A DNA stretch of 64,000 nucleotides from Curtobacterium sp. MCLR17_007 (lineage in GTDB: Bacteria > Actinomycetota > Actinomycetes > Actinomycetales > Microbacteriaceae): positions 2,666,001 through 2,730,000 of the forward strand of contig NZ_CP126271.1 of the NCBI RefSeq assembly GCF_003234655.2. Reading direction: 5' to 3'. Position 1 is the first letter of the stretch. The number at the start of each line of letters is the position of its first letter. Positions 9,383 through 16,367 of the stretch are shown one piece after another. The notes under the pieces were generated by a model. It saw only the letters and a list, made by a program, of their open reading frames with translations. It was not told where the DNA came from and made no database searches. Made by a program: the position numbers and the translations under genes.

Positions 9383-11806
9383 TCAGCCGCGTCCGCGTGC
9401 CAGGGCCAGGGTCTGCCGGAGCGACAGGTCGGGGAGGTAGGCGCGGACGACCGCGACACCGATGGCGGGCAGCGCGACCGCGTCCGGGTACGCCAGCACC
9501 AGGGGGTGCAGGTCGGGGCCGAACTTCAGCTTGAACCGCAGCAGCGACCGGAAGCCGTACACGGGCTCGAGCACGCCGCCGACCAGGTCGAGCAGGCTCT
9601 GCACACCGTCGCCGGACGGAGCCGCCCCCGGCGCCTGGGCGAGCGGCGCGGCGGACAGACTCAGTTTCTCGGCACCGTCCTCGCGCATCCGGTCCGCGGC
9701 ACTCGCCACCAGGAACTCCATCACGCCGTTCGGGGCCGCGTTCGTGCGGCGCATCACGTCGAGCGTCCACCCGACGACCCGGCCCTCGCGGTACGACGGC
9801 AGCCAGCTGGTGACGGCGAGGACGGTGCCCTCGGCGTCCTGCGCCACGAGGGTGCGGACGTCGGGGTCGCGCATCTCGTCGACGCCACCGAGGGTGAACC
9901 CCATCTCCGGCAGCTCGCGTTCGGAGACCCACTCCTCCGAGATCGCCTCGATCTGTCGGGTGGTGGCGGTCGGCAGCTCGTGCCAGGCGGACCACGTGGC
10001 GGTGATCCCCTCGCGGGCGGCCTTGTTCACCGCGGTGCGGACGTCCTGCTTCTTCTTGCCGCTCGTCGTCCACGGGCGCGGGTCGAAGTCGGCGTCCTCA
10101 GCGACGGGCAGGGTGCTCCAGCCGACGGCGCGGAGCGGCACCGCGACGGCGTCGTCCACGCCGTAGAACACCGGGGTCCAGCCGTTGTCGTCGCAGTGCC
10201 GGGCGAAGGCGGCGAGCGCCGGGGTCCTGGCGTCCTCGTACCCGAACGGCCCGCCGAGGGTCACCGCGACCCCGCCGTTCCGCCGGTAGGCGATCCCGGC
10301 GCGGCCGTCGTCGGCGAACCAGTACGTGTTGCCCTGCCAGGTGGTCATCCACCCAAACGTGTCCCCGCCGCCGGCCTTGAGCAGGGCTCGGGCACGCTCG
10401 CGGTCCGCCCGGGTGCCGTCGGGGTCGAGGTCCAGCGGAGCCGCTCCGGTCGGGCGGACCGCGGCGATCGCGACGACGAGCCAGAGGACCGGGCCCGCGA
10501 TCGCGAGCGAGAACCGCAGTCCGGCGCCCATCGTCGGCAGGTGGTCCCAGAAGGTGGTCGGCGAGATCGGCCCGAGGGCGGCGACCGCGATCCCCAGCGG
10601 GTCGGCCACCCGGGTCGGCGAGGCGTCGGCGACGACGAGCAGCACGGCGACCAGGACCGCGGCCGTCCCGAGCACGACCGCCGCGAACCCGATCAGGCGT
10701 CGGCGGGTGGGGAGCACAGTGAACGACCGACGCAGGACGACCAGCACCACGGCCGTCGCGAGCGGCACCAGGACCGACGCGACGATCGAGAGCGTGACGA
10801 TGAACTGGTCCTCGGTGCCGTGCAGTCGTTCGATGCGCCCGGGGACCGCCGTGTAGGTCACCGCTGCGGCGATCGCCGTCACCAGGTCGACCACGACGAC
10901 GAGCCACACCGCGAACCGGCTGCCGCGGAACAGCCCGAGCCCGCCGACGACCAGGACCAGCAGGGGCGGGACGGCGAGCAGGAGCGTCCACGGGTCGGTC
11001 GCCCGGTACGCGAGCAGGTGGCGCAGGCACTCCCCCGCGACCCCGTCCGCGCGGCAGCCGGACACCGGGGTGACGGGACCGGTGCCGACCACGGCGGCGA
11101 TCGGTGCGAGCAGGCCGACGCGTGCGCGGGAGACGAGCGCGATGACCGGGCCCACGGCGGAGACGAGCACGACGGTGCCGAGCAGGACCCGGATCTCGCG
11201 GTGCGAGCTGCGCGTCCACCCGACCCGCTTCGGGGTCCGCCGCAGCACCTCGCCGAGGATCCAGCCGGTCGCCGCGGCCAGCACGGCGTACAGGTCCGAC
11301 GCGTGTCCGGCGTACAGGAACAGCGCCGCGACGACGGCGAGGGTGTTCACGCGGATGCGCCGGCGCCAGAGCGGTCCGGCGAAGGCGCTGGCGGTGGCGA
11401 TCGTCCCCACGATCGCGGTCCAGGGGTCGAAGCTGGTCGCCCGCCCGAGCAGCAGCGCCCCGGCGTTCCGTCCGTCCAGGTCGACGAAGGCGCTGAGCGC
11501 GCCCAGGCCGGTCCCGACGACGGTCGTCACGACGAAGGCGGCGGCCGTCCGCCTCGACCCCATCAACCGTTCGGAGGCTCCCACCAGGACCACGACGCCG
11601 GCGAGCGTCAGGAGGAGCGCGAGCACACCCGTCGAGGCGGCGAAGACCCGGAACGGTCCGAGGTCCTGCGGACCGTTCGGCGCGTGGGAGACGCGCGTCA
11701 CGACCCCCACGACGGTGGTCAGCAGGACCAGCACCGTGATCGTGACCGTCACCGGGGCGCGTCGGGCCGAGCGGAGCGCCGTCGACCCGAGGTCGCGCGG
11801 GCTCAC
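9383..11806 (-). CDS. MprF-like aminoacyl-phosphatidylglycerol synthase (DUF2156)
   Basis: An 807-residue protein with a large multi-span membrane region (about residues 1-480) and a cytosolic GNAT-like DUF2156 domain. In the latter, GGDTFGWMTTWQGNTYWF, SGKKKQDVRTAVNKA and GVMEFLVASAADRM are typical of MprF/LysX2-type synthases that move an amino acid from charged tRNA to phosphatidylglycerol or diacylglycerol. The N-terminal part could include the flippase. The GTG start overlaps the esterase stop (GTGA). Such products lower membrane charge and often raise resistance to cationic peptides; which amino acid is used cannot be read from the sequence. Confidence 0.8.
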   Translation of the reverse strand: MSPRDLGSTALRSARRAPVTVTITVLVLLTTVVGVVTRVSHAPNGPQDLGPFRVFAASTGVLALLLTLAGVVVLVGASERLMGSRRTAAAFVVTTVVGTGLGALSAFVDLDGRNAGALLLGRATSFDPWTAIVGTIATASAFAGPLWRRRIRVNTLAVVAALFLYAGHASDLYAVLAAATGWILGEVLRRTPKRVGWTRSSHREIRVLLGTVVLVSAVGPVIALVSRARVGLLAPIAAVVGTGPVTPVSGCRADGVAGECLRHLLAYRATDPWTLLLAVPPLLVLVVGGLGLFRGSRFAVWLVVVVDLVTAIAAAVTYTAVPGRIERLHGTEDQFIVTLSIVASVLVPLATAVVLVVLRRSFTVLPTRRRLIGFAAVVLGTAAVLVAVLLVVADASPTRVADPLGIAVAALGPISPTTFWDHLPTMGAGLRFSLAIAGPVLWLVVAIAAVRPTGAAPLDLDPDGTRADRERARALLKAGGGDTFGWMTTWQGNTYWFADDGRAGIAYRRNGGVAVTLGGPFGYEDARTPALAAFARHCDDNGWTPVFYGVDDAVAVPLRAVGWSTLPVAEDADFDPRPWTTSGKKKQDVRTAVNKAAREGITATWSAWHELPTATTRQIEAISEEWVSERELPEMGFTLGGVDEMRDPDVRTLVAQDAEGTVLAVTSWLPSYREGRVVGWTLDVMRRTNAAPNGVMEFLVASAADRMREDGAEKLSLSAAPLAQAPGAAPSGDGVQSLLDLVGGVLEPVYGFRSLLRFKLKFGPDLHPLVLAYPDAVALPAIGVAVVRAYLPDLSLRQTLALARGRG

Positions 11807-13131
11807 AGCGCGCCGTCCTGCGCCGGCAGGCCGAGGTGAGCGATGACCAGCTGGAGTCCGTGGGCGAGCACGTACCGGACGGTGTTCCAGTCGTGTGCCG
11901 AACCCGGTGAGACCAGGACGTCGGTCTGCATGCCCGCCTGTTCGGCCGCGGTGCGGAGTCGCGCGGTCGTTGCTCGGTACGGGGCGTCGTCCTGGCCGAA
12001 GCCGAAGACGGTGAGGTGGTCGTGGTACGGCGCGTTGCGGTGCATGATCGCGATCGGGGCGGCCGCGGCGTACGCGGCACGGTCTCCGTGGAACGCCACC
12101 TGGGCCGAGTGCTGCGCCGAGCCGGTGAACGGCGCGATCTCGCTGGAGATCGCGAGCGCCGAACCGAACACGCCGGGGTGCTCCGCCGAGAACTGCATCG
12201 CGCAGGTCGCCCCCTCGGAGAACCCGTCGACGCCCCAGGCCGACGGCCCGGACGCGACGTCGAGGTGCTTCTCGATCCAGTGCACGGTGTCCGTCATGAC
12301 GTAGGTCGCGCTGCGTCCGAGCTGCCGTGAGTCCAGGCACATCGGGTTGCGGTTCGGGGCCCCGAGCTGGTCCGGCGCGACGACGATGGGCGCCAGGCCC
12401 TTGTGCGCAGCTGCATAGGCGTCAAGGTACCGGCCCATGCCACCCGCCTGGAACATGTCGGACGGCTGACCGGGCTGACCGGAGAACGTCACGAGCACGG
12501 GCAGGGTCGGCGGGTCCTTCGTCAGCGCTGCCGGCGGGAACCAGACGACGGCCTTGCGGGCGTGGAAGTGGGACACCGTCCCGGGGATGCGGAACGACAT
12601 CGCCTTCCCCTCGCGGGGCATGCCGGCCGGTGCCGTCCACGTCGCGGCGTCGACGACCGTCGCGCCCGGCGCTGCGGCGTGCTGGTGTCCGAGCGTGCCG
12701 TCCGGGTAGGGGTTCGTCGTGATGGCCTGGTCGATCGTGCGGTACGCCCCGAAGTCCACGTTCACCCCGAGGCCCGCCGCCAGCACCATGGTGGCCATCG
12801 CCGTGACCGCGAGCACCCGACGCCCCCACGCCCGTCCGTTGAGCCCGCCCTGCACCAGCACGACCAGGGCGAGCGCGATGCCGGCGAACGCCAGAGCGAC
12901 CCACATCCGTGTGACCGGGGTGAACGCGACGCCGAACTCGTCGCGGACGTCGCCGAACCACCAGACGGCGAGCAGCCCGACAGCGGCACCGACGACGACG
13001 GCGACCACCCGCAGCACCAGCCCCCGACGCCGACCGAGGAGCGTCCAGAGGGTCAGCAGCGCCGCCAGGACGTCGACGGGGACGAGCACCTGGGGGGTGA
13101 CGATCGGCACGCGGAGCAGTTCGGTGAACAC
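11803..13131 (-). CDS. Membrane-anchored alpha/beta-hydrolase esterase
   Basis: A 442-residue protein with about four N-terminal membrane spans (LLTLWTLLG, VVAVVVGAAVGLLAVWWF, WVALAFAGIALALVVLV, VLAVTAMATMVLAAGLGV) and an extracytoplasmic esterase domain of the antigen-85/Fes type. The nucleophile elbow is GVDGFSEGATCAM (GFSEG) and a likely catalytic histidine is in PGSAHDWNTV. It is translationally coupled to the MprF-like gene. In Enterococcus and corynebacteria, hydrolases linked to aminoacyl-lipid synthases remove the amino acid again; that role is the best inference here. Confidence 0.75.
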   Translation of the reverse strand: MFTELLRVPIVTPQVLVPVDVLAALLTLWTLLGRRRGLVLRVVAVVVGAAVGLLAVWWFGDVRDEFGVAFTPVTRMWVALAFAGIALALVVLVQGGLNGRAWGRRVLAVTAMATMVLAAGLGVNVDFGAYRTIDQAITTNPYPDGTLGHQHAAAPGATVVDAATWTAPAGMPREGKAMSFRIPGTVSHFHARKAVVWFPPAALTKDPPTLPVLVTFSGQPGQPSDMFQAGGMGRYLDAYAAAHKGLAPIVVAPDQLGAPNRNPMCLDSRQLGRSATYVMTDTVHWIEKHLDVASGPSAWGVDGFSEGATCAMQFSAEHPGVFGSALAISSEIAPFTGSAQHSAQVAFHGDRAAYAAAAPIAIMHRNAPYHDHLTVFGFGQDDAPYRATTARLRTAAEQAGMQTDVLVSPGSAHDWNTVRYVLAHGLQLVIAHLGLPAQDGAL

Positions 13132-13317: not shown

Positions 13318-14826
13318 TCAGTGCCGGCGTCGGAGGACGAGCGTCCCGGCACCGGCGAGGAGCAGCAGCAGCGCGAACCCCAGGGGCACGGCGGGCGAGG
13401 TCGCCCCCGTGTACGCCAGGGTCGACGGGGTGGTGCCCGACGTCGCAGCGGCGGCGGCGACCGGGACGGTGGCGACCGTGCGGGCCGTCGTGGCGGTCTG
13501 TGCCGTGGCGACGGTGGCGACGGTGGCGACCGTGCCGGTGGTCACGACGCCGATCGGGGTCGTCGTGGAGCCGGGCGTGGTCCCGTCACCGGGATCGGTC
13601 CCGTCGCCGGGGGTCGTCCCGTCACCGGGATCGGTCCCGTCACCCGGGGTCGTCCCGTCACCGGGGGTCGTCCCGTCACCCGGGTCGGTCCCGTCACCGG
13701 GGGTCGTCCCGTCACCGGGGGTCGTCCCGCCACCCGGGGTCGTGGTGGTGCTGGTGCCGTCACCGACGATGCCGATGCCGTTCCCGCCGATGGTGATCGG
13801 GATGCCGATCACCGGCGCGACCTGCGTGCCCGAGAGCAGCCCACCGTCGCCGGTGGTCGTGCTCCCGGTGCCGGTGCCCGCCGTGCCGGAACCCGTGCCG
13901 GTGCCCGTCGATGAACCGGTCGAGGTGCCGTCACCGACGATGCCGATGCCGTTCCCGCCGATCGTCACCGGGATCGAGACCACCGGGACGACCTGCGTCC
14001 CGGATGCGACGCCGTCGGAGCCGGTCGTTGCCGGACCCGACGTACCGGCACCGGGCGTACCCGTCGTGCCGGTGCCGGTCGAGGAACCGGTCGAGGTCCC
14101 GTCACCGAGCAGCCCGATGCCGTTGCCCGACACCGTCACCGGGACCGAGACCACCGGGACGATCTGCGTCCCGGATGCGATCCCGTCGGAGCCGTCCGTG
14201 GTCGGAGCGGCCTCGGACGGTGCCGACGGCGCCGGGGCCGTGGCGGCCGGAGCCACCGCGGTCGAGGTCGCGTCACCGAGCACCGAGATCGCGTTGCCGG
14301 TCACGTCGACCGGAGCCTGTACGGTGCCGGCGACCTGGGTGCCGGACGCCACCGCGTCCGCACCCGACGTCGTCGGTGCCGCGGGGGCCGCGGGGGCCGC
14401 GGCCGGTGCTGCAGGGGCCGGAGCCGCGGTCGCCACCGCGTCGCCACCGACGGCGATGGCGTTGCCGCCGACCGTCACAGGGGCGGTCACCTCGGGCACC
14501 ACCTGGGTCCCCGAGGCCACACCGTCGGACCCGGACGTCGACGGGGCGGCAGCCGGTGCGGCAGGGGTCGGCGCCGGCACGGCAGCCGGTGACGGTGCAG
14601 CCGGCGCAGGTGCCGCCGGGGCCGCGGACGACACCGCGTCACCGAGCACGCCGAGGGCGTTGCCGAGGACGGACACGGGGGCGTCGACGGACGGCGCCAC
14701 CTGGGTCCCGGACACGGCACCGTCAGCGCCGGTGGTGGTCGCAGCGTTCGCCGCGGCAGCACCTCCGAACGTCAACCCGCCGACGAAGAGGGCGAACCAG
14801 AGCCCTCTGGAGACGTACTTGTTCAT
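13318..14826 (-). CDS. Secreted chaplin-like repeat protein with LAXTG sorting signal
   Basis: A 502-residue surface protein. Residues 1-29 are a signal peptide (AAAANA/A). Six 34-residue repeats follow at about 33-66, 99-132, 155-188, 212-245, 269-302 and 326-359, each patterned SGTQV-x-P-x(4)-PV-x-V-x-GN-x(5)-GD, which mirrors the Streptomyces chaplin core (SGN-V..P..VPVNVCGN...VIG) but without cysteines. Ala/Pro and Gly/Thr spacers separate them, then a TPGDG repeat tract and a sorting signal: LAYTG (about 470-474), a hydrophobic span and RRRH. LAXTG is the sortase-E class. ATG at 14826 is 8 bp after AGGAG. It likely forms an amphipathic wall coat. Confidence 0.8.
   Translation of the reverse strand: MNKYVSRGLWFALFVGGLTFGGAAAANAATTTGADGAVSGTQVAPSVDAPVSVLGNALGVLGDAVSSAAPAAPAPAAPSPAAVPAPTPAAPAAAPSTSGSDGVASGTQVVPEVTAPVTVGGNAIAVGGDAVATAAPAPAAPAAAPAAPAAPTTSGADAVASGTQVAGTVQAPVDVTGNAISVLGDATSTAVAPAATAPAPSAPSEAAPTTDGSDGIASGTQIVPVVSVPVTVSGNGIGLLGDGTSTGSSTGTGTTGTPGAGTSGPATTGSDGVASGTQVVPVVSIPVTIGGNGIGIVGDGTSTGSSTGTGTGSGTAGTGTGSTTTGDGGLLSGTQVAPVIGIPITIGGNGIGIVGDGTSTTTTPGGGTTPGDGTTPGDGTDPGDGTTPGDGTTPGDGTDPGDGTTPGDGTDPGDGTTPGSTTTPIGVVTTGTVATVATVATAQTATTARTVATVPVAAAAATSGTTPSTLAYTGATSPAVPLGFALLLLLAGAGTLVLRRRH
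13560..13740. repeat. TPGDG codon repeat tract in the chaplin-like gene
   Basis: Nearly identical 18-bp blocks (GGTCGTCCCGTCACCGGG and variants) encode TTPGDG/TDPGDG units in tandem. The tract is a flexible wall-spanning stalk before the sorting signal and is a likely hotspot for copy-number change. Confidence 0.9.
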
Positions 14827-14909: not shown

Positions 14910-16259
14910 TCAGTCAGGGGCGACGTCGTGCTCGCCGGAGAGCGACGTGGGGACCGCGTCGTCGGCGATGGTGCCGCGCGTCCCGGCGGCGAGGGGGTCC
15001 TGGTCGGCGGACGCGCCGACGGTGCCGATGACACCGGCCCCGGCGGACCCGGAGCTCGCGGTGCCGCCGGAGGTCGAGGAGCCGGCGCCGCCGAGGGGCT
15101 GGTCGCCGGGGGTACGGCCGTCGGGGACGACGAGCGCCGTTCCGCCGAGCGTGGCGGACGCGGGTGCCGCGTTGGCCGATGCCGACTGCGGAGTCGCCAC
15201 GCCGACCGCGGCGCGCGACGGCGCGGAGGGTGCGTCCGCGCTGGCGGCGGCAGCAGCCGGCACGGCGGCAGCAGATGGCGCGAGCGCGACCGGTGCTGCA
15301 ACGGGCTCGACGGACGCCGACGACGCCGGTGGCGGTGAGGCCCCCGCGGTGCCGGAGCCGGTGCCCACCGGGGGCGCGGGTGCGGGCAGGACGGGAGTGG
15401 GGCCTCCAGGCAGGAGGACCGTCGGCGGCGACACGCCGGACACGACGTCCGGGACGTCCCCGACGACCGATCCGACGCTGCCGAGTGTGTCGTCCACCAA
15501 CCCCGTGACCGGCGCCGTGACGGTGCCGAGCGTGTCGTCACCGAGCACCGTGCCCACGACGGGCACCGCGCCGACCACGTGGTCGAGCGTGCCCACGAGC
15601 GAGGTGAACGGGCGTGCGCCCGTCAGGCCCTCGACGGTCCCGGTGACGGGCCGCAGGACGGTGGCCAGCGAGTCGGTCAGCGGACGGGAGGCCGTGGTCG
15701 CCGCCGCCGCGTCGACCGGCGTCGCCGGGGCGGTCGCGCTGCTGTCGGTGGCCGGTTCCGCGGGCTGGGCGGCGGTCGCCGGGGCTGGCGCCGGTGCCGC
15801 CGAGGTGCCGGCGGGCGCGGCCGGAGTGGCAGCTGCCGCGGGAGCAGGAGGCGCCGCGGGGACGGACGCAGCGGGAGTCTGAGCGGCCGGTGCCGGTGCC
15901 GCGACGGGGGCCGCAGGCGCTGGAACGGCTGGCGCAGCCGGAGCCGGGGCCGCCTGCACGGGGGCGGCGGGGACCGCGGCAGCGGGCGCCGGTGCCGCCG
16001 GGGGCTTCGGGACAGCGGCCTGGACGGGCTCGACGGCGGTGCTCACGACCTGACCGACGCCACTCGTGACGCCCTGGACGGTGTCACCGAGGCCCTGCAC
16101 GACCCCGCTGACCAGGCCCTGGGCAGGCGCACGCTCAGCGGCCGACGCGGCGTGCGCGCCGACGGTCAGCGAGAGCAGCACGGCGGCGGCGCTCACCCCG
16201 GTGCCCATCAGGGCGTACCGGATCGCAGCGCGCCAGGGTGCGCGCAACGGCTTGTCCAT
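14910..16259 (-). CDS. Secreted Ala/Pro/Val-rich protein of unknown function
   Basis: A 449-residue protein with a signal peptide (YALMGTGVSAAAVLLSLTVG then AHAASA/A). The mature part alternates amphipathic Val/Gly/Thr stretches (VVQGLGDTVQGVTSGVGQVV; TGLVDDTLGSVGSVVGDV) with long Ala/Pro linkers. There is no cysteine pattern, sorting signal or enzyme motif. AGGAGGTGAGCG directly precedes the ATG at 16259. It lies 83 bp upstream of the chaplin-like gene in the same direction, so the two may be co-expressed and act together at the cell surface. A similarly Ala/Pro-rich reading in other frames reflects base composition only. Confidence 0.7.
   Translation of the reverse strand: MDKPLRAPWRAAIRYALMGTGVSAAAVLLSLTVGAHAASAAERAPAQGLVSGVVQGLGDTVQGVTSGVGQVVSTAVEPVQAAVPKPPAAPAPAAAVPAAPVQAAPAPAAPAVPAPAAPVAAPAPAAQTPAASVPAAPPAPAAAATPAAPAGTSAAPAPAPATAAQPAEPATDSSATAPATPVDAAAATTASRPLTDSLATVLRPVTGTVEGLTGARPFTSLVGTLDHVVGAVPVVGTVLGDDTLGTVTAPVTGLVDDTLGSVGSVVGDVPDVVSGVSPPTVLLPGGPTPVLPAPAPPVGTGSGTAGASPPPASSASVEPVAAPVALAPSAAAVPAAAAASADAPSAPSRAAVGVATPQSASANAAPASATLGGTALVVPDGRTPGDQPLGGAGSSTSGGTASSGSAGAGVIGTVGASADQDPLAAGTRGTIADDAVPTSLSGEHDVAPD
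15409..15424. repeat. REP-like word (GGGGCCTCCAGGCAGG)
   Basis: A degenerate member of the CTGGAGGCCCGG family, inside a Pro/Gly linker of the secreted protein gene. Confidence 0.4.
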
Positions 16260-16367
16260 GCGCTCACCTCCTGATCTGGCTGCGCACGTAGAGTGGTTGA
16301 CCGGCACGGTACGCCTCTCGGGGCGATCCCGGAACCCCCTTCACAAGCAATCGTCAGGAAATCCCGC

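Follow-up and report, generated by a model that had tools for sequence, protein, structure and literature searches.

The window, by which we denote the whole stretch of 64,000 nucleotides that was analysed, contains on its minus strand a gene for a protein of 502 amino acids (13318..14826), hereafter the wall gene. Inspection of the open reading frame and the ribosome binding site placed the ATG start codon at 14826, with the sequence AGGAG 8 nucleotides 5′ of it, and the stop codon at 13318. An earlier note on this DNA had given the coordinates, strand and frame of this gene as well as its six repeats, stalk and LAYTG motif correctly. A scan for promoters and terminators found none. The protein starts with a signal peptide (MNKYVSRGLWFALFVGGLTFGGAAAANAA; residues 1-29, with the cleavage site placed by eye; 14740..14826, minus strand), which is unusually conserved across the family. 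Six repeats follow on the minus strand at residues 33-68 (14623..14730), 99-134 (14425..14532), 155-190 (14257..14364), 212-247 (14086..14193), 269-304 (13915..14022) and 326-361 (13744..13851). Their starts are spaced by 66, 56, 57, 57 and 57 residues, of which approximately 30-36 represent the repeat proper, and the motif SGTQ recurs at residues 39, 105, 161, 218, 275 and 332. As repeats 4-6 are spanned by tandem DNA repeats of 171 nucleotides, they look like recent duplicates. Repeat 6 is followed by an acidic TPGDG/DPGDG stalk (approximately residues 368-420; 13567..13725, minus strand), a tandem repeat with a period of 18/54 nucleotides, which, when scanned alone, matched neither PF03777 nor any Pfam family above its cut-off. 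Of the linkers between the repeats, 1-3 are rich in Ala and Pro, and 4-5 in Ser, Gly and Thr. The C-terminal end (residues 470-502; 13321..13419, minus strand) comprises the LAYTG sorting signal at residues 470-474, a hydrophobic helix and an RRRH tail. Residues 30-474 contain 26 Asp, 2 Glu, 1 Arg and 1 Tyr, and neither Lys, His, Phe nor Trp; such a very acidic mature protein (28 Asp or Glu, one Arg, no Lys, one aromatic residue) suits a hydrated as well as a hydrophobic layer.

Directly upstream of the wall gene we observed a second gene on the minus strand (14910..16259), termed the partner gene, which had not been noticed in the earlier note. It encodes 449 amino acids, and an in-frame GTG at 16307 is also possible as start codon. 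The partner protein looks secreted and comprises a signal or membrane segment, Val-rich segments, Pro/Ala linkers and a conserved C-terminal tail that ends with Pro-Asp (TIADDAVPTSLSGEHDVAPD; 14913..14972, minus strand). The Pfam scan assigned no family to the partner protein of the source genome, and a scan of 11 partner proteins yielded four families, each matched by a single member (best E-value 3.8e-5). A protein search with the partner alignment retrieved 11 proteins; three from Curtobacterium or Microbacterium and two from metagenomes are named 'hypothetical protein', and the rest are nameless. Downstream of the wall gene and likewise on the minus strand lie an esterase-like gene (PF00756, 33 bits; 9386-11800) and an MprF-like gene (LPG_synthase_C, 272 bits; 11806-13131), which possibly point to an envelope gene group. 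These two genes follow the pair in 23 of 36 Curtobacterium-group loci, some of which end at contig ends, and two genes that we take to be Lrp-like and GNAT-like precede the pair in 33 of the 36. The retention of these flanks rules out a recent local insertion of the wall gene.

The ChpA-C family model PF03777 matched the wall protein with 53.8 bits (cut-off 21) in six stretches. When the repeats were compared with the model one by one, as the earlier note had proposed, repeat 3 exceeded the cut-off with 23.4 bits, but the other five remained below it (17.8, 20.2, 18.5, 16.0 and 14.9 bits for repeats 1, 2, 4, 5 and 6, respectively). As reference we used 29 distinct complete domains from PF03777 loci. 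The pattern used for their selection includes Cys as well as GN, so that both are present by construction; the domains are called Streptomyces-type by their sequence, and their source genomes include eight of one genus. The profile of these domains matched the wall protein with 58.0 bits after an HMMER bias correction of 53.6, whereas no score above 8.0 bits was obtained when residues 29-440 were shuffled 500 times. Composition alone is thus ruled out as the cause of the match, the stalk alone being likewise unmatched. Moreover, hhalign aligned 1139 distinct repeats with the reference domains over 31 ungapped columns with a probability of 96.5 and an E-value of 8e-10 (SPGVLSGN--Q-P---PVNVCGN--VVG in the reference, G-DG--SGTQ------PVTVGGNAISVLG in the repeat). 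On the template, which has 49 columns, the aligned span runs from column 7 to column 37 and thus lies in the first two thirds of the Streptomyces-type domain. Taken together, the two profile scores and the hhalign result bear out the previous assignment of the repeats to the chaplin core pattern, and they indicate that the repeats are shortened homologues of the PF03777 chaplin domain.

The proposal that these are chaplin domains lacking their cysteines is correct with respect to the cysteines, none of which occurs in the six repeats or elsewhere in the 502 residues, but the domains are shortened and not complete ones minus Cys. On the PF03777 model of 57 positions the match of the whole protein extends at best over positions 6-45 and that of a single repeat at most over positions 16-47, short of a complete domain. 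Chaplins are defined by three GN motifs that are 12-13 residues apart (PMC13251363), and a domain contains two Cys. In the wall protein GT takes the place of the first GN, all six repeats retain the middle one and the third is absent; the middle GN is followed by GD, at the point where GLLNPAFGNxC stands in the reference domains. Cys is not absolute in chaplins, since ChpE and the C-terminal domain of ChpB are reported to be devoid of it (PMC13251363, PMC5618241, PMC3079736). Cys, two of the three GN motifs (the first and the third) and the larger part of the segment in which aggregation is predicted to be strongest are thus missing from the repeats, and the match represents homology to PF03777 and not a complete chaplin.

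Related proteins are widespread. Among the best 120 of 139 homologues that were listed by a protein search, named ones stem from Schumannella, Curtobacterium, Microbacterium, Agreia, Mycetocola, Agromyces, Amnibacterium, Conyzicola, Leifsonia, Cryobacterium, Cellulomonas, Pseudarthrobacter and others, and several of those listed carry 'chaplin family protein' or 'DUF320' names in NCBI or UniRef. The feature had been thought peculiar to the source bacterium; this view is not supported, as relatives in Microbacterium, Mycetocola, Agromyces, Conyzicola, Leifsonia and Pseudarthrobacter are already named 'chaplin family protein'. These Micrococcales proteins, termed 'chaplin family protein' or 'DUF320 domain-containing protein', show the same kind of signal peptide, repeats and sorting signal without a difference in kind, and the wall gene of the source genome is an ordinary member of this group. 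Chaplin-like genes are also mentioned for the non-sporulating Arthrobacter chlorophenolicus in a 2013 review (PMC4255298). A search for PF03777 in 296 genomes of the phylum was positive in 11, eight of which belong to a single genus.

A scan of one genome per species yielded 78 loci, mostly from Curtobacterium and other Microbacteriaceae, which were found with query peptides so that similar proteins are favoured; six of them (L091, L095, L098, L099, L101 and L103) match little beyond the stalk, and locus L062 and genome G358 are apparently the same record. Together with 14 later loci and the 120 proteins they form the family set, which holds 215 proteins or reading frames with at least two repeats and 1336 repeats in total. 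For these 215 entries, as for the 84 partner frames described below, kinship and duplicates are uncorrected, gene pieces are included and many stem from Curtobacterium. The repeat core is strongly constrained (G8 98%, Q10 93%, P18 99%, G30 98% and D31 91% of the 1336 repeats), and the middle GN retains its N in 84%. The Cys column contains Gly, Ser, Thr or Ala in 1213 repeats and Cys in none, and only five repeats hold any Cys, seven residues in all. This rules out the loss of Cys as a local oddity; the Cys-free, many-repeat state is family-wide. The copy number of the repeats in the relatives ranges from 2 to 19, mostly 5-8, and an LAx[TS]G end is present in 184 of the 215. A 19-repeat version is found in Microbacterium arabinogalactanolyticum, where a frame of 1407 codons runs to the end of the locus (L092:7953-12173). 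The nearest relative seen is that of Curtobacterium sp. Leaf183, with an identity of 93% for the wall protein and of 98-100% for six neighbours, each taken over the best stretch. In this strain the wall gene is split over two overlapping reading frames (L026:7914-9932), owing to a frameshift or an assembly error within the repeats; more than one repeat-bearing frame is also seen at loci L056, L075, L077, L083, L084 and L096. Some relatives bear the strain names Leaf183, Leaf261, Leaf336 and Leaf186, and others come from elsewhere. The proposed life on dry surfaces or leaves is conceivable, its basis being the names of some of these strains.

The C-terminal end with the LAYTG motif matched the model NF058582 (Microco_LAVTG) with 31 bits (cut-off 27), in line with the previous assignment of a sortase-E-type wall signal. 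The source genome encodes three sortases, one of class E (223.3 bits against NF033747, cut-off 160), one of class F and a class-F-like one below the cut-off (L001, L002 and L003, respectively); the class E sortase that had been expected in the full genome is thus present. Five reading frames of the source genome exceed the LAVTG cut-off, among which the wall protein scores best. The four further frames (G000:C1:2894452, 3442887, 3371625 and 574699) probably represent additional substrates of the class E sortase. A class E sortase lies above the cut-off in 135 of 150 genomes of the family, and because it is near-universal its presence says little. Likewise, its co-occurrence with the locus is uninformative: of the 47 genomes in which the signal-peptide locus described below occurs, 46 have a match and one, G418, has none.

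Structure prediction was of low confidence, with a mean pLDDT of 48.3 for the AlphaFold model of the wall protein and 50.0 for that of the partner, whose Val-rich segments are modelled as helices with low confidence. In the wall protein a helix is predicted at residues 479-501 (mean pLDDT 86 for residues 481-490 and 89 for 491-500). A Foldseek search of the PDB with the wall protein model returned no match. Chaplins are reported to be most prone to aggregation towards the end of the peptide, in a stretch at normalised positions 36-46 (PMC3079736). When aggregation hot spots were computed with a residue scale, the strongest one followed CGN in all 29 reference domains, and most of this segment is missing from the repeats, which weakens the inference of an amyloid. 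Compared with shuffles of the same residues, none of the repeat maxima was significant at 5% (lowest fraction 0.082). The hot-spot count argues for a weaker amyloid propensity. With the segment mostly missing and the maxima not significant, the expected structure is a coat or brush that is rich in beta structure and hydrated or weakly amphipathic, and not a rodlet layer.

The partner gene accompanies the wall gene throughout the family set. A first partner profile was built from 104 rows, 19 of which are stray reading frames and none a wall protein, and a cleaner one from 84 rows. With the first profile, 80 of the 81 loci that offer more than 1200 nucleotides of room showed a partner homologue directly upstream of the wall gene, and this result held with the cleaner profile. 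At the exception, L062, the adjacent frame ends with TPD and matched with an E-value of 4e-3, and of 3.8e-11 with the cleaner profile. Of the 4685 reading frames at the loci, 85 match the first profile, and 84 of these adjoin a wall gene. The remaining one (L098_p2932) belongs to Krasilnikoviella flava and lies at a locus without a wall gene (E 1.9e-12 and 1.6e-10); it is one of two strays of the cleaner profile, the other being L077_p7306 (2e-4). The cleaner profile also matches the wall-protein entries P0043, L153/L177 and L168 weakly (7e-6 to 3.5e-3). A profile built from Curtobacterium-group loci only recovered 33 of 38 partners of other genera before the first stray at an E-value of 2.2. 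Within approximately 1.5 kb of the fetched Streptomyces-type chaplin genes the cleaner profile gave no match at E<1, and the first profile gave one match near such genes (L116, 7e-6). Of the 84 matching frames, 80 have Asp at position -5, 82 have Pro at position -2 and 80 have Asp at position -1; hence, the C-terminus is the most constrained part of the partner. The adjacency shows shared function or regulation, not contact.

The same picture emerged from 150 genomes of the family. The wall protein detected homologues with E<=1e-20 in 41 genomes and with 5e-10 in G405; the other seven of the 49 positives match the stalk and the C-terminal end only. In 38 of the 42 wall-protein-positive genomes a partner profile match lies just upstream. 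In several of them, G480, G485, G494 and G495 among them, it covers part of the protein, the whole gene having been viewed where it was fetched. The remaining four (G356, G358, G418 and G466) have an adjacent gene that ends with Pro-Asp and matches the partner (E 4e-14, 3.8e-11, 1.3e-9 and 9e-31 with the cleaner profile, respectively). Moreover, the 32-residue signal peptide alone gave 57 matches at E<=0.01, of which 48, in 47 genomes, reach E<=1e-5, and all 48 are located just downstream of a partner gene, though a few partner matches are partial. Three of the nine weaker matches were viewed and revealed neither partner nor repeats. The partner match in G461 runs to the contig end, and weak partner matches (E 2-3e-4) occur in G365, G401, G406 and G469.

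The partner profile was also applied beyond the family. In an order-wide draw the partner profile matched 17 of 198 genomes, eight of them outside the Microbacteriaceae and two of these eight weakly; in a class-wide draw it matched seven of 197, six in the Microbacteriaceae and the seventh weakly (7e-6). Profile A2 misses genome G052, which has the pair; therefore, its silence elsewhere is no proof of absence. The pair occurs with chaplin-like repeats in three loci of other families (L154 and L155, from two families, and L172). The repeats of L172 (L172:1584-4085; LNGNVISPEVAVPVNVSGNTVSVIGDS) keep the first GN, and one contains Cys; by their sequence they look like an intermediate between the Streptomyces and the Microbacteriaceae types. 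At five further loci the frame downstream of or overlapping the partner gene matches the signal peptide weakly (E 1e-6 to 8e-5 at L169, L170, L171 and L174, 0.05 at L173), and a sorting signal is seen only at L169 and L174. The partners of L170 and L171 end with APD. Those of L169, L173 and L174, all from one other family (f9), end with PVSPA in place of SPD; therefore, the terminal Asp of the partner is not universal.

The retention of the partner beside the wall gene in the relatives suggests a two-protein surface coat made by the wall-anchored repeat protein and its Pro-Asp-tailed partner, a reading to which we assign a probability of roughly 0.6. After export via its signal peptide, the wall protein would probably be linked to peptidoglycan at its LAYTG motif by the class E sortase. 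The acidic TPGDG stalk would hold it out from the wall, and the six short, presumably beta-prone chaplin-like repeats would be displayed on flexible Ala/Pro and Gly/Ser/Thr linkers. Wall protein and partner may then jointly build the coat, in which the anchored repeat protein would act as long chaplin, with the partner in place of the missing short chaplins as a co-polymer, a nucleator or a factor for export or assembly. A search of the source genome with PF03777 gave no match at E<=0.001 and hence no short chaplin, a result that excludes complete domains only. It misses even the wall protein because single repeats fall below the threshold. The wall protein as query found, apart from itself, one weak match in the source genome, to the stalk.

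The body of the wall protein is not the same at all these loci. Among the 48 strong signal-peptide loci, chaplin-like repeats are present in 43, weak in one of them, and other repeats in five. The latter, in G390, G399, G471 and, twice, in G403, have a like signal peptide and a sorting signal of the LA or LP type, and the chaplin-like profile does not see their repeats; these genomes and G434, together with the 42 mentioned above, account for the 48 loci. G403 possesses two copies of the pair (L157 and L158); both partners are Pro-Asp-tailed, and the repeat profile found chaplin-like repeats in neither of the wall proteins, which span 652 and 1520 codons. G399, without such repeats, and G467, with nine, belong to the same genus and share flanks of 80-88% DNA identity on both sides; between these flanks one match of at least 120 nucleotides is left, of approximately 300 nucleotides, which holds the partner tail and the wall signal peptide. 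In this single clean same-genus pair the difference may reflect exchange or fast divergence. We consider it possible, at somewhat less than even odds, that the Micrococcales carry a two-gene coat cassette, recognised by the partner tail and the signal peptide, in which the repeat body is exchanged or rapidly rewritten in place, and that the long and short chaplin pair of Streptomyces would be a specialised outcome of this older wall-coat plan. The non-chaplin wall proteins behind the same partner could also be divergent descendants of chaplin-like repeats instead of exchanged bodies, as a similar LLGD motif in G399 and the other repeats of G434, which stand together with four weak chaplin-like ones, would suggest. 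Against this, the chaplin-like profile finds no repeats in L175, L179, L180, L181 and L182 even with filters off, while signal peptide and sorting signal remain; descent of this kind is conceivable, and we would place it a little below an even chance.

Returning to the two-protein coat, the wall protein might instead be a stand-alone adhesin or spacer, whose repeats are rigid beta-hairpin beads that provide reach and multivalent binding but form neither coat nor amyloid, and whose partner is only co-regulated. The long flexible linkers, which surface proteins of the reach-and-bind kind typically have, the widely varying copy number, the weak predicted aggregation and the quite different repeats of some relatives at the same kind of locus would all fit this function. 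However, a mere spacer leaves both the conserved adjacent partner and the chaplin homology unexplained, and we regard this explanation as unlikely. That the protein is a true long chaplin and, like those of Streptomyces, builds a hydrophobic, rodlet-like amyloid layer is very improbable: PF03777 homology, an LA-type signal, which most of the longer Streptomyces-type proteins also have, the class E sortase and the reported independence of chaplin fibrils in vitro from Cys (PMC3079736) are in its favour, but one GN of three is kept, Cys and the LNPAFGN segment are missing, the composition is acidic, and no Streptomyces-type chaplin was found in the genome, such domains mostly scoring 70-105 bits and one 43.

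The coat as proposed resembles several known systems in part. With the Streptomyces long chaplins ChpA-C the wall protein shares the signal peptide, several chaplin-type repeats with ungapped homology over 31 columns, the LA-type signal and the class E sortase. Unlike ChpA-C with their two complete domains, it has six shortened repeats (2-19 in the relatives) without Cys and LNPAFGNxC and with one GN of three, and long Ala/Pro and TPGDG spacers; moreover, the Pro-Asp-tailed partner is encoded in the source genome, where no short chaplins were found. TasA of Bacillus subtilis is, to our knowledge, not sortase-anchored. TasA and TapA, described as a fibre protein with a dedicated assembly helper, would be similar by analogy only (PMC5618241). 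The lack of cysteines is shared with ChpE, a Cys-free short chaplin (PMC3079736, PMC5618241); in contrast to the wall protein, ChpE is short, consists of a single domain without an anchor and assembles into fibrils in vitro. Wall anchoring of the class-E-sortase type, predicted here from the sequence, is a feature in common with CwpA and CwpB of Actinoplanes missouriensis, which are reported to be class-E-sortase-dependent, hydrophobic, wall-anchored and morphogenetic, with large disordered regions and few beta clusters predicted (PMC13251363). In contrast to the wall protein, they are devoid of chaplin domains according to their authors, and the accessible part of that paper mentions no Pro-Asp-tailed partner (PMC13251363).

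The naming of the Micrococcales relatives as 'chaplin family protein' is already known, whereas the locus consisting of partner and wall gene is apparently undescribed: in the literature on chaplins, sortases and Microbacteriaceae that was accessible to us, which included few subscription journals, we found no description of the partner or of the gene pair. Chaplins have been studied almost only as spore-coat proteins of Streptomyces. We know of no aerial hyphae in the Microbacteriaceae. The occurrence of a chaplin-derived wall protein in many Microbacteriaceae, beside the conserved partner, makes the role of the chaplin motif outside, and before, aerial growth testable, and the strict Pro-Asp tail together with the conserved signal peptide points to an undescribed step of export or assembly that may be common to wall proteins with different repeats.
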